This document shows positions 37,887 through 57,811 of a stretch of 64,000 nt of DNA, one piece after another. Below the pieces are notes generated by a model, which saw only the letters and a list, made by a program, of their open reading frames with translations, was not told the origin of the DNA and ran no database searches. Position 1 is the first letter of the stretch. Each line of letters starts with the position of its first letter. A program made the translations under genes and the position numbers. The stretch is taken from assembly GCF_021049285.1 (NCBI RefSeq), contig NZ_CP088017.1, forward strand, positions 868,001 through 932,000, written 5' to 3'. The stretch is from Ruania halotolerans. Lineage in GTDB: Bacteria > Actinomycetota > Actinomycetes > Actinomycetales > Beutenbergiaceae.

Positions 37887-38711
37887 ATGACCACACCGAC
37901 GTTCACCCCGGGCACCGATTCGCCCGGCACCGGCCGACGCCCTGCGAAGGACGCCGTACTCGAGGGAGCGGTCGAACTCGCTCGCACCGCGCTGGCCGAG
38001 AACACCGGCGCCGTTGGCGCGCACCTCGGCTTCGAGATCGAGTCCGAGCGGCTCGGTATCCACTGGTTCGAGGCGACGATGCCCGGGTACCGCGGATGGC
38101 GCTGGTACGTCACCGTCGCCCGAGCACCCCGGTCCCGCACCCCCACGATCTGCGAGAGCGGCCTGCTTCCTGGCGAGGGCTCCCTCCTCGCCCCGGCATG
38201 GTTGCCCTGGTCCGAGCGGCTTGCGCCCGGGGACCTCAACCCCACGGACCGTCTTCCGCACGTGTCCGACGATCCGCGACTCGAGCAGGGCTATGTCGCC
38301 ACCGGGGACCCGGAGCAGGACCGCGTGGCGATCATCGAACTCGGCCTCGGCCGGGACCGGGTGATGAACGCCAAGGCGATCGACGCTGCAGCGACCCGTT
38401 GGTACTCGGGCTCGCGTGGCCCGGAGTCAGCCGGAGCGCGCGCCGCCGATCAGCCGTGCGCCGCCTGCGGGTTCGTCATCCCGCTCGGCGGCTCACTGGG
38501 TCAGCTTTTCGGTGTGTGCGCCAACGAGTGGTCACCCGACGACGGCAAGGTGGTCTCGCTCGACCACGGATGCGGGGCGCACTCCGAGACTGACGTACCC
38601 CCGCAGGGGCACGAGTGGACCCAGAGTGAGCTAGTGGTGGACGAACAGGGCGTGGATGTGCTGACCGTCGACGCAGACACGAAGAACCCGGCTGATCCGG
38701 CCGCCGACTGA
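37887..38711 (+). CDS. DUF3027 family protein
   Basis: 274 residues from the ATG at 37887 (GAGGTGG upstream; a GTG three codons earlier is possible). The N-terminal 180 residues carry DUF3027-like segments: AVELARTALAENTGAVGAHLGFEIESERLGIHWFEATMPGYRGWRWYVTVARAPRS, and LLPGEGSLLAPAWLPWSERLAPGDLNPTDRLPH. A likely zinc site follows (CAAC...GVCANEWSPDDGKVVSLDHGCGAHSE). The family is confined to actinobacteria and has no known function. It follows the cold-shock gene closely and probably shares its transcript. Confidence 0.87.
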   Translation: MTTPTFTPGTDSPGTGRRPAKDAVLEGAVELARTALAENTGAVGAHLGFEIESERLGIHWFEATMPGYRGWRWYVTVARAPRSRTPTICESGLLPGEGSLLAPAWLPWSERLAPGDLNPTDRLPHVSDDPRLEQGYVATGDPEQDRVAIIELGLGRDRVMNAKAIDAAATRWYSGSRGPESAGARAADQPCAACGFVIPLGGSLGQLFGVCANEWSPDDGKVVSLDHGCGAHSETDVPPQGHEWTQSELVVDEQGVDVLTVDADTKNPADPAAD

Positions 38712-38757
38712 GTGTCTCCCCGGCAGGTGTGAGACCCCTTCGTTACCCTGGAATCGA

Positions 38758-38782
38758 GCGCCGAATCGACGGGGTTCGGCGC
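38758..38782. other. Inverted repeat in the leader of the repeat-protein gene
   Basis: GCGCCGAA (38758-38765) and TTCGGCGC (38775-38782) form a perfect 8-bp stem with a 9-base loop, ending 21 bp before the ATG at 38804. It could be an RNA hairpin ahead of the GGAGAGGG ribosome site, or a terminator for the DUF3027 gene. Confidence 0.45.
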
Positions 38783-38803
38783 CTCCGAGGAGAGGGCACT
38801 GCC

Positions 38804-39106
38804 ATGAAGTCGATATCGATGCGCGTCCGTGCAGGCGTGGTTGCCGGCTTTGCCGCCGCCGCACTGCTGATCGGCGCACCTGCTGCATCCGGCGTGGTTT
38901 CCGCCGGTTCCGTCACGATCCTGGGTGGGGGCGGCGATGAGGAACTCATCAGCGTGCCACCCCGGGTCTCCACCCAGGGCGGCGGTGATGAAGAACTCAT
39001 CAGCGTCCCACCCCGCGTCTCCCTTCAGGGGGGCGGTGACGAGGAGTTGATCAGCATCCCGCCGCAGCAGTCCGTCCAGGGCGGCGGCGACGAGGAACTC
39101 ATCTGA
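38804..39106 (+). CDS. Small secreted protein with four GGGDEELI repeats (unrecognised family)
   Basis: 100 residues from the ATG at 38804, with GGAGAGGG 8 bases upstream. A basic start and hydrophobic core (MKSISMRVRAGVVAGFAAAALLIG) form a signal peptide, cleaved near residues 26-34. The mature part is almost only repeats of 17 residues: GGGDEELISVPPRVSTQ (42-58), GGGDEELISVPPRVSLQ (59-75), GGGDEELISIPPQQSVQ (76-92) and a final GGGDEELI (93-100). Codons differ between units mostly at third positions while GGGDEELIS is kept exactly, which indicates selection on the protein. There is no Cys, no sortase motif and no C-terminal helix. A strong hairpin follows the stop. I do not recognise it; it could be a secreted structural peptide, a multi-copy peptide precursor or a metal binder. 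Confidence 0.8.
   Translation: MKSISMRVRAGVVAGFAAAALLIGAPAASGVVSAGSVTILGGGGDEELISVPPRVSTQGGGDEELISVPPRVSLQGGGDEELISIPPQQSVQGGGDEELI
38927..39103 (+). repeat. 51-bp in-frame repeats encoding GGGDEELI units
   Basis: Units begin at 38927, 38978, 39029 and 39080, the last cut to 24 bp before the stop. Units 1 and 2 are the most alike; unit 3 differs most, in both wobble bases and the PPQQS segment. The period is exactly 51 bp, so the frame is kept. Confidence 0.9.
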
Positions 39107-39123
39107 GTCTCCACTGAGATCTG

Positions 39124-39158
39124 CCGGCGGTGCGCGGCCACGAGCCGCGCACCGCCGG
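39124..39158. terminator. Strong hairpin after the repeat-protein gene
   Basis: CCGGCGGTGCGCGG (39124-39137) and CCGCGCACCGCCGG (39145-39158) form a perfect 14-bp stem with a 7-base loop, 17 bp past the stop at 39106. No T-tract follows. It separates the repeat gene from the MFS gene, implying distinct transcripts. Confidence 0.8.
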
Positions 39159-39210
39159 TCCATGCCTGCCTGAGGGCGGCGACAGCAGGCGAAGGGAGGA
39201 CAGCCCCTGT

Positions 39211-40446
39211 ATGAGTACGCCACCCCACGGTGACTCGTTGCGCCCGCTCCTGCGTGGGGTGTACCTGCCGGCGTTGCTGTTCAGCGTGGGTATCGGCGCC
39301 ATGACGCCGATGATTGCCGTGAGCGCCATCGGATTGGGAGCGAATGCGGCCACGGCGGCGTTCCTCGCCGCACTGATCCCCATCGGGCACATCATTGCTG
39401 ATGTACCCGCCGGAGCGCTCGCGGCACGGTTCGGGGAACGGCCGGCGATGATCGGCTCCTCAGTGGTCGCGATGGCGGGGCTCGCGGCTTGTGCCGTGGC
39501 GCCCAACCTGTGGGTTCTCGGCATTGCCGTGGTGGCCGTCGGTGCGGCAGCTGCCGTGTACGGGCTCGCGCGGCAGACCTACCTCACCGAGGTGATCTCG
39601 CCGATGCGCCGGGCCCGCGCGCTCGCTTCACTCGGCGGGGTGGGCCGGATCGGCACCTTCCTCGGCCCGTTCCTCGGCGCCGCCCTGGTGCTCGGACGTG
39701 GCGATGCCGCGCCGTCCTACTGGCTCGGTGTGGTCACCTCGCTGCTCGCCGCCGTGGTCGTCTGGCGGGCCGTCCCGGCGTCTGCTGGGCGTACCGGCGC
39801 CAGCGGTGCGGGCACCCCCGCGCGGGTCTCCACCTGGTCGGTCTTCCGCGATCTGCGCCCGGTGTTCACCACCTTGGGAACCGCGGTGGTGCTGGTGGGC
39901 GCCATGCGTGGGGCACGGCAGACGGTGCTCCCGCTGTGGACCGAGAGCCTGGGCTACGCACCGGCCACCACGAGCGTGGTGTTCGGAGTCTCCGGCGCGG
40001 TGGACATGCTGCTGTTCTACCCGGCAGGCAAGGTGATGGACCGGATGGGCCGGTTGTGGATCGCGATCCCCTCCATGCTGGTCACCGCCGCGGCGATGGT
40101 GGCGCTGCCGTTGACTGAGGGGTTGGCCGCGGTGACCGTGGTGGCGGTGTTCCTGGGCTTCGGCAACGGGATCGGCTCCGGCGTGCTGATGACGCTGGGT
40201 GCCGACGCCGCCCCGGAGCACGCCCGGGCCCAGTTCCTCGGTATCTGGCGGCTTTACAGTGACGCCGGGATGGCGGCCGGCCCTCTCGTCGTCTCCGCCG
40301 GGGCGGCGCTCGGGTCGCTCGCTGCCGGGATTGGCGCCACCGGCGGCATCGGCGTGCTCGCCGCCCTCGCCCTGCGGCGTTGGGCGCCACGGTGGAGTGT
40401 GCACGCCAACCGCACCACCCGCCGTCGGGCCGGTCTGCTCGAGTAG
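39211..40446 (+). CDS. MFS transporter
   Basis: 411 residues from the ATG at 39211 (AGGGAGG about 12 bases upstream). It has twelve hydrophobic helices. The loop 2-3 motif reads GALAARFGERPAMI (a version of GxLaDrxGrkxx), and the second-half copy is GKVMDRMGRLWIAIP. It resembles drug- or small-molecule-efflux carriers of actinobacteria; the substrate is not readable. It follows the repeat-protein gene but is separated by a strong hairpin, so a role in exporting that protein is not supported. Confidence 0.9.
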   Translation: MSTPPHGDSLRPLLRGVYLPALLFSVGIGAMTPMIAVSAIGLGANAATAAFLAALIPIGHIIADVPAGALAARFGERPAMIGSSVVAMAGLAACAVAPNLWVLGIAVVAVGAAAAVYGLARQTYLTEVISPMRRARALASLGGVGRIGTFLGPFLGAALVLGRGDAAPSYWLGVVTSLLAAVVVWRAVPASAGRTGASGAGTPARVSTWSVFRDLRPVFTTLGTAVVLVGAMRGARQTVLPLWTESLGYAPATTSVVFGVSGAVDMLLFYPAGKVMDRMGRLWIAIPSMLVTAAAMVALPLTEGLAAVTVVAVFLGFGNGIGSGVLMTLGADAAPEHARAQFLGIWRLYSDAGMAAGPLVVSAGAALGSLAAGIGATGGIGVLAALALRRWAPRWSVHANRTTRRRAGLLE

Positions 40447-40475
40447 CTGCGTACACCGTCTGCCACGATGACCCA

Positions 40476-41105
40476 GTGGAACATCGCATCGACGTGGCCG
40501 CCGCCCGGCTGCCGGGCTGGCTCACCCGATTCGGTGAGCGTCACCCGGAAACGGTGATGGACATCGTCGACACCTCAGTGCTCGTGCAGGCACCGGATGG
40601 TGCCACGGCGCGGATCACCGCCTGGCCCAGCCAGCCGCCGGCCGAGGTGGAGGCATTGCAGGACTGGGTAGCCGGGCCGGCACAGATCGGGCTCATCCTG
40701 GTGCGCCGGGGTGGCTGGTCCGTGGGCGTTGCGCGCGAGGCAGAGCTGACCGCGCACCGCACCGGACGGCGGTATGTGCAGTCCCGGACGGCCGCCGGCG
40801 GGTGGTCCCAGCAACGGTTCGCCCGCCGCCGGGGAAACCAGGCGGATGCCTTGGTGGGGCACGTGGCCGAGGCAGTGGCGACGATGCTGCCAGCGGACGC
40901 GGGGGGAGTGGTTCTCGGTGGCGACCGGGCGCTCGCGGCCGCCGTTCTGGACGACCTCCCGGCACACACCGGGCAGCCCGCGCTCAGGGACCTGCCGCGT
41001 CGCGAGTTCTACGACCTGCCGGATCCTCGGTTGACCGTGCTGCGTACGGCGCTGGCTCGAGCGCGATCGGCGCAGATCTGCGTGGACGATCCCACTCGCG
41101 GCTGA
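40476..41105 (+). CDS. acVLRF1-type peptidyl-tRNA hydrolase (Vms1-like release factor)
   Basis: 209 residues from the GTG at 40476. The key segment is the Gly-rich loop with its glutamines (AAGGWSQQRFARRRGNQADALVGHVAEAVATML, about 107-138), characteristic of the VLRF1/eRF1-like family in which a Gln replaces the eRF1 GGQ element. It is preceded by IGLILVRRGGWSVGVAREAELTAHRTGRRYVQSR and followed by GVVLGGDRALAAAVLDDLP. Family members are predicted to release peptides from tRNA on stalled large ribosomal subunits, as eukaryotic Vms1 does. It lies 29 bp after the MFS gene. Confidence 0.8.
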   Translation: MEHRIDVAAARLPGWLTRFGERHPETVMDIVDTSVLVQAPDGATARITAWPSQPPAEVEALQDWVAGPAQIGLILVRRGGWSVGVAREAELTAHRTGRRYVQSRTAAGGWSQQRFARRRGNQADALVGHVAEAVATMLPADAGGVVLGGDRALAAAVLDDLPAHTGQPALRDLPRREFYDLPDPRLTVLRTALARARSAQICVDDPTRG

Positions 41106-57525: not shown

Positions 57526-57654
57526 CGGCGGAACTCGCCAGCAGTGTCCGTCTCGCCAGGCAACGGCTGCCCTACTCGCTCGAGTGGGTCCCTGCCCACA
57601 GGCCGGACGCCCTGGTTGAGGTTGCGTGATGGCGAGTAGGGTGGAGGAGACAAA

Positions 57655-57752
57655 GCCCCCGGGGAGCGCGTTGGCGCTGAGAGTGCGGTCGCATACTGCG
57701 GCCGCAGACCCGAGGAACCTGATCCGGTTCGCACCGGCGTAGGGAGTAGGGC
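57655..57752 (+). ncRNA. TPP riboswitch (THI element)
   Basis: Conserved blocks appear in order: GGGGAGC (57661), CTGAGA (57677-57682), ACCC (57708-57711), GAACCTGATC (57715-57724) and GCGTAGGGA (57737-57745). The outer stem pairs gccc (57655-57658) with gggc (57749-57752). Between CTGAGA and ACCC is an extended optional arm. It precedes the ykoFEDC transporter operon, so it should shut the operon off when thiamine pyrophosphate is plentiful. Confidence 0.96.
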
Positions 57753-57811
57753 AACAGAAGCGAGTACTGGCGCAGCCATGCGCACGTACCCGGGCTGTCA
57801 CGTCCCTCGGG

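Follow-up and report, generated by a model that had tools for sequence, protein, structure and literature searches.

A putative exported precursor of repeated short peptides at a conserved locus of Ruania and Occultella

Introduction

Peptides of Phr-type RRNPPA systems mature outside the cell and are then re-imported via the oligopeptide permease. In Bacillota, it has been shown experimentally that an exported propeptide can hold tandem copies of a pheromone, with the pheromone at the C-terminus (PMC11343458, PMC5199041). Extracellular processing of tandem-duplicated Phr propeptides has been shown (PMC11343458), and the number of copies is labile between relatives (PMC5199041). Other groups of proteins carry short repeated units as well. 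Fungal Kex2-processed repeat proteins (KEPs), including yeast alpha-mating factor, have a signal peptide followed by many near-identical short cores with spacers (PMC7329392); precursors of the thiovarsolin family, actinobacterial modified peptides (RiPPs) exemplified by VarA, hold one to five repeated cores (PMC6511847); and RTX nonapeptide proteins consist of tandem GGxGxDxUx units with an Asp at position 6. For Actinomycetota, descriptions of quorum sensing usually invoke small molecules, whereas Bacillota use peptide signals (PMC10075063).

Here we describe a small gene of Ruania halotolerans, at 38804-39106 (+) of the window (the whole 64,000-nucleotide stretch of DNA that was analysed), which is most similar in layout to the Phr/NprX propeptides and their tandem forms Phr3T and Phr105. 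The likeness lies in a small, putatively Sec-exported propeptide, a C-terminal peptide of about 5-8 residues, identical or nearly identical internal copies and a labile copy number (PMC11343458, PMC5199041). By hydropathy, the 100-residue product is a putatively Sec-exported protein within the RRNPPA range (10-100 aa), unlike the orthologues of a related genus, g8, and a short peptide stands at the C-terminus in all 11 complete orthologues that have a signal peptide. The differences are that a TPR receptor gene (250-500 aa in RRNPPA systems) was not found among the neighbours, that the family belongs to another phylum and has a Gly-rich acidic core with up to 8 copies (22 in g8), and that no sequence similarity to Phr/NprX is shown. 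We do not file the family under RRNPPA, in which the receptor gene is adjacent, nor, as discussed below, under RTX proteins, thiovarsolin RiPPs or Kex2-type repeat precursors.

Results

The gene and its flanking elements

The open reading frame encodes 100 amino acids plus stop, and its translation is MKSISMRVRAGVVAGFAAAALLIGAPAASGVVSAGSVTILGGGGDEELISVPPRVSTQGGGDEELISVPPRVSLQGGGDEELISIPPQQSVQGGGDEELI. This agrees with the initial annotation, which had described a 100-residue product that starts with a signal peptide, contains four near-identical GGGDEELI repeats and ends exactly on that sequence. The signal peptide region (38804-38905, +) has a charged n-region and a hydrophobic core at residues 11-25, and cleavage is predicted near residue 30 or 34. 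The Sec-like call is based on hydropathy and n-region charge: the Kyte-Doolittle maximum mean (15-residue window) is 2.19 here, and the maxima are 2.2-2.6 across all Ruania and Occultella orthologues. Translation, pattern search and codon comparison place the cores at 38927-38950 (with one extra G ahead), 38978-39001, 39029-39052 and 39080-39103, all on the plus strand, the fourth being the exact C-terminus. Tandem Repeats Finder reports 38930-39103 with a period of 51 bp, 3.4 copies, 77% matches and no indels, which bears out the 17-residue unit noted earlier. A degenerate DNA pattern for GG-GDEELI occurs four times in the genome, always inside this reading frame, and its reversed control not at all; the gene is single-copy in its own genome.

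The gene appears to be equipped as a unit of its own. The ribosome-binding site credited to it in the initial annotation can be read directly from the sequence ahead of the ATG (GAGGAGAGGG, 38787-38796, +), and a -10-like hexamer, TACCCT (38744-38749, +), 60 nt before the ATG, is a predicted promoter element. A strict sigma-70 scan called no promoter for this gene; 13 of 14 orthologues have a single TA[CG]NNT, placed 54-73 nt ahead of the ATG. Folding predicts a 5′ leader hairpin with a 10-bp stem (38758-38782, +), which is not unusual against shuffled sequences (z = -1.4) and has predicted counterparts in other Ruania. Downstream of the stop, the strong terminator that had been proposed is upheld as a structure, a perfect 16-bp stem (39123-39159, +) with a folding energy of -41.6 kcal/mol with its flank and z = -6.3, but it has no U-tract, and for that reason a consensus terminator scan did not call it. 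Comparable hairpins were found 3′ of the stop when other Ruania and Occultella loci were folded, and this one is likely the end of the transcript.

The neighbours are DUF3027, MFS, cold-shock domain, acVLRF1 and ROK genes. The DUF3027 gene (PF11228; 37878-38711, +) is the conserved upstream neighbour and the MFS transporter gene (39211-40446, +; start ATG at 39211) the conserved downstream one. The second gene downstream, at 40380-41105 (+), encodes an acVLRF1-type release-factor-like peptidyl-tRNA hydrolase. Elsewhere in the window, a TPP riboswitch was identified at 57650-57764 (+; RF00059, 64.8 bits).

This neighbourhood bears on whether the product could be the precursor of a modified peptide with repeated cores, like VarA. 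Thiovarsolin-family precursors in Actinobacteria with one to five repeats (PMC6511847) and the MFS gene downstream are in keeping with such a RiPP, and the thiovarsolin model NF033878 is the only, weak, NCBIfam match of the window protein, at E = 0.075 and 13.3 bits, far below the cut-off of 35. VarA, however, needs YcaO/TfuA enzymes, and neither these nor any other modifying enzyme was found among the neighbours. Of the 9 carrier genomes tested, 6 lack YcaO, and the YcaO gene of G000 is about 240 kb distant. RiPP leaders are not usually Sec signals, and in G009 the MFS gene follows DUF3027 even where the small gene is missing. We regard a modified peptide as very improbable.

Distribution of the family

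A search of the genus returned an orthologue with three cores in G001 with synteny in the flanks, and DUF3027 was therefore used as an anchor. The survey comprised 22 family genomes with a DUF3027 match. The order DUF3027, small gene, MFS is present in all seven Ruania genomes in which the DUF3027 locus is assembled, all four Occultella and all three g8 genomes; the remaining 8 of the 22 have no gene of the repeat type downstream of DUF3027. In G009, MFS comes directly after DUF3027. In an eighth Ruania genome (G004), DUF3027 is not assembled and a GWGDELI-type match is present. The initial annotation had made its reading depend on orthologues with a conserved core in related genomes, and these exist in all seven Ruania genomes with the locus.

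Beyond these genera the slot looks different. Of 60 DUF3027 loci taken from about 50 further Micrococcales genera, none has a reading frame of this kind in the slot. Among 396 genomes of the order, the g8-type protein is restricted to g8, the one exception being a weak match in a genome of a different family (L118; G144:C29:5496-5741, minus strand; E = 2e-9, 45% identity). The only confirmed matches in a GTDB scan for GWGDELI, from which the genus names used here are taken, came from three Occultella species, Ruania albidiflava and Candidatus Ruania gallistercoris. The match in the last is on a MAG fragment truncated within the signal peptide (L053) that carries four GWGDELI copies and then the MFS gene. 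A GTDB-wide scan with the window protein gave no match, an absence that may mislead because the peptide patterns are too specific and near records were possibly left out. The searches covered one genome per species, with order and phylum sampled, and profile searches have little power with short repeats, so that distant relatives whose cores and loci differ may have escaped them.

No credible family match for the window protein was found in Pfam, NCBIfam or PHROGs, in line with the initial annotation, which knew of no family with this core. Phage and plasmid collections gave no match, and a literature search found no occurrence of any core string. Several candidate relatives were set aside. 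Most of the weak genus matches (L005-L020) were taken as chance hits to signal peptides and low complexity; L006 and L023 are unrelated genes, L023 matching the beginning of a different gene in antisense by chance. A Pfam SH3_2 match on the g8 protein (E = 4e-9) was taken as a repeat artefact, and a DUF7620 match on the Occultella protein is below the cut-off. Weak profile matches across the phylum were also rejected, those inspected being mostly RTX proteins with a signal peptide. Small proteins of this kind with RTX-like repeats (L146, L147, L149, L151 and L157) are apparently convergent with the Occultella 9-mer. We conclude that the window protein represents a family not described before, which among the genomes searched is confined to Ruania, Occultella and g8.

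Those phylum-wide matches are one reason to consider a calcium- or metal-binding repeat folding as an RTX-like beta-roll. The Occultella 9-mer, NGWGDELIR, resembles the RTX unit, with G-x-G-D-E-x-I near the consensus, and RTX-type NCBIfam models match the Occultella protein at E = 8e-6 and 0.0015, although these scores are far below the model cut-offs. In the same 9-mer, however, the Ca2+-binding Asp at position 6 is replaced by Glu, and the period is 17 in the window protein, 15-17 in Ruania with GWGDELI and mostly 9-13 in g8. Some species have a single copy, HemolysinCabind (PF00353) gives no match even at E = 10, and AlphaFold2 returned no confident structure, only an unstructured chain (mean pLDDT 45 and 43). 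An RTX-like fold is thus quite improbable.

Variation in core, copy number and spacer

GGGDEELI is not universal in the family; the core is specific to the lineage. G000 has four copies of GGGDEELI and G001 three, and three other Ruania genomes (G003, G005 and G006) encode proteins of 58, 58 and 73 aa with one DEEVI core at the C-terminus. GWGDELI is found four times in G002 and five times in G007, both Ruania, with spacers of 9-10 residues, and six or eight times in Occultella with two-residue spacers, RN or RA. The g8 proteins (L029, L032 and L044, downstream of DUF3027) have 230-303 aa with 15-22 units of GGKDGDEFI or GPKDGSEFI and an N-terminus of 30 residues that does not form a Sec signal; they lack a hydrophobic signal sequence and run on for one residue after the core Ile. 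Homology of the g8 proteins to those of Ruania and Occultella, judged from position and a G-[DS]-E-[LF]-I-R pattern, is less certain than homology between the latter two.

GWGDELI is identical in 35 of 35 units of Ruania and Occultella, while spacer length (8-10 against 2 residues) and sequence differ and the signal peptides diverge, a constancy that marks a heptapeptide with sharp ends. In all 11 complete orthologues with a signal peptide, the C-terminal end is the core Ile, and the residue that follows this Ile at internal copies varies by lineage (S, Q/N or R). Unlike the KEPs, these bacterial proteins lack dibasic Kex2 sites: no KR or RR occurs between cores in the orthologues compared.

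In a DUF3027 tree, Ruania and Occultella form one clade (96/94), which divides into the DEE[LV]I species (100/97) and the GWGDELI species (80/76); g8 and G009 are not firmly placed. The core sequence thus tracks the species tree, and the copies of any one gene remain homogeneous. Copy number (1 to about 20) and spacers are free to change, while the short peptide stays constant.

Selection on the core

The core codons of the window gene differ only synonymously (GAT/GAC, GAA/GAG, CTC/TTG), with five synonymous variants and no amino-acid variants (P about 1e-3 against neutrality). Counted by distinct codon variants, the synonymous excess has P values from 1e-3 in this gene to 5e-7 in Occultella, which are optimistic because related units are treated as independent. 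Pooled over units, the cores have pS of 0.40-0.62 and pN of 0-0.044. Per unit, core pN/pS is 0.05 in the window gene, 0 in Ruania with GWGDELI (9 units), 0.02 in Occultella (26 units) and 0 and 0.11 in g8; for the window gene's whole 17-aa unit with its spacer it is 0.26. Between two Occultella genomes (G018 and G016), pN is 0.126 in the signal and linker part and 0.008 in the repeats. Compared between units and between orthologues, as had been proposed at the outset, the pattern is that of purifying selection concentrated on the core: the core is fixed within each lineage and synonymous sites vary. The earlier claim that selection acts on the peptide and not the DNA is borne out by these synonymous-only variants and by pN/pS of 0-0.11 across lineages.

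Codon usage also addresses the idea that the repeats are kept for DNA or RNA, as a binding-site array or a leader attenuator of the MFS gene. The core sequence GAYGARYTCATC is quasi-palindromic and the reverse strand is open too, as such an element might be. TTG, TTA, CTG and CTT codons, however, break the palindrome synonymously with the peptide constant; since TTG, TTA and CTG do so, the DNA is not the conserved thing. Ser alternates between AGC and TCC/TCG in G019, and in Ruania a strong hairpin stands between the gene and MFS. A role of the nucleic acid itself was already disfavoured and is barely credible. A long antisense reading frame at 38501-39223 (-) spans the repeats and reads DEFLIAAP/DEFFITAAL. 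It is explained by GC-rich codon bias together with the quasi-palindromic core codons, and was rejected as a coding frame on the codon evidence.

Discussion

Our favoured reading, to which we assign a probability of about 45%, is that the gene encodes an exported multi-copy propeptide that delivers a 7-9-residue peptide ending in Ile and works like the tandem-duplicated Phr propeptides. The precursor would be expressed from its own promoter and exported through the Sec pathway, bearing several identical Gly-rich acidic peptides of 7-9 residues (GGGDEELI in the window protein, GWGDELI in Occultella and other Ruania) linked by spacers, with the last copy at the free C-terminus. Extracellular proteolysis may then free the copies as short peptides, which would most plausibly signal between cells, much as Phr peptides do, at a dose set by copy number. 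Transcription, export, processing, receptor and signalling role are all put forward from sequence and analogy, and a signal is only possibly what the delivered peptide is. The features that point to a propeptide are the selection on the core, the sharp heptapeptide ends, the C-terminal Ile in 11 of 11 proteins, and the ribosome-binding site, conserved -10-like element and terminal hairpin that the gene has to itself. Three Ruania species manage with one core at the C-terminus, which makes multivalency dispensable, and the range of 1 to 8 copies among members with a signal peptide means that dose can change. Against a propeptide, there is no adjacent receptor gene and no TPR_12 match within 550 kb in the genome (the nearest lies more than 550 kb off, in a 1132-residue frame); there is no conserved cleavage site between copies, nor a pattern pointing to one protease; and the g8 orthologues lack a signal sequence and end one residue past Ile.

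The main rival is that the secreted protein stays uncleaved and shows one to many copies of a short linear binding motif, serving either as an adaptor outside the cell or as a C-terminal tag that a partner, for example a PDZ-type protease, recognises. Conservation of the core is equally expected for such a protein, which has no need of a conserved protease site between copies, and the predicted unstructured chain suits a motif-bearing linker. On the other hand, the single-copy species speak against a need for multivalency, and spacers ranging from 2 to 10 residues are unusual for a fixed-geometry scaffold, though tolerable for a flexible one. We consider an uncleaved motif protein possible, if somewhat doubtful. 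A scaffold or a metal-binding repeat protein, both named in the initial annotation, fit less well given that three Ruania species keep a single copy.

The propeptide reading can be extended to an actinobacterial peptide-signalling system in which a Sec-exported, polyprotein-like precursor would set free many heptapeptides of the same sequence. Duplication of units would tune the copy number, and the peptide would diverge by lineage together with an unlinked receptor; in this full form we think the reading unlikely. If true, a conserved exported multi-copy heptapeptide precursor in Actinomycetota would be a direct lead to peptide signalling in the phylum. GWGDELI, sharply bounded and common to two genera with different spacers, is one specific peptide that can be made synthetically and tested. 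The natural series of 1, 3, 4, 5, 6, 8 and about 15-22 copies at one locus may likewise serve as a model for the expansion and homogeneity of repeat precursors.
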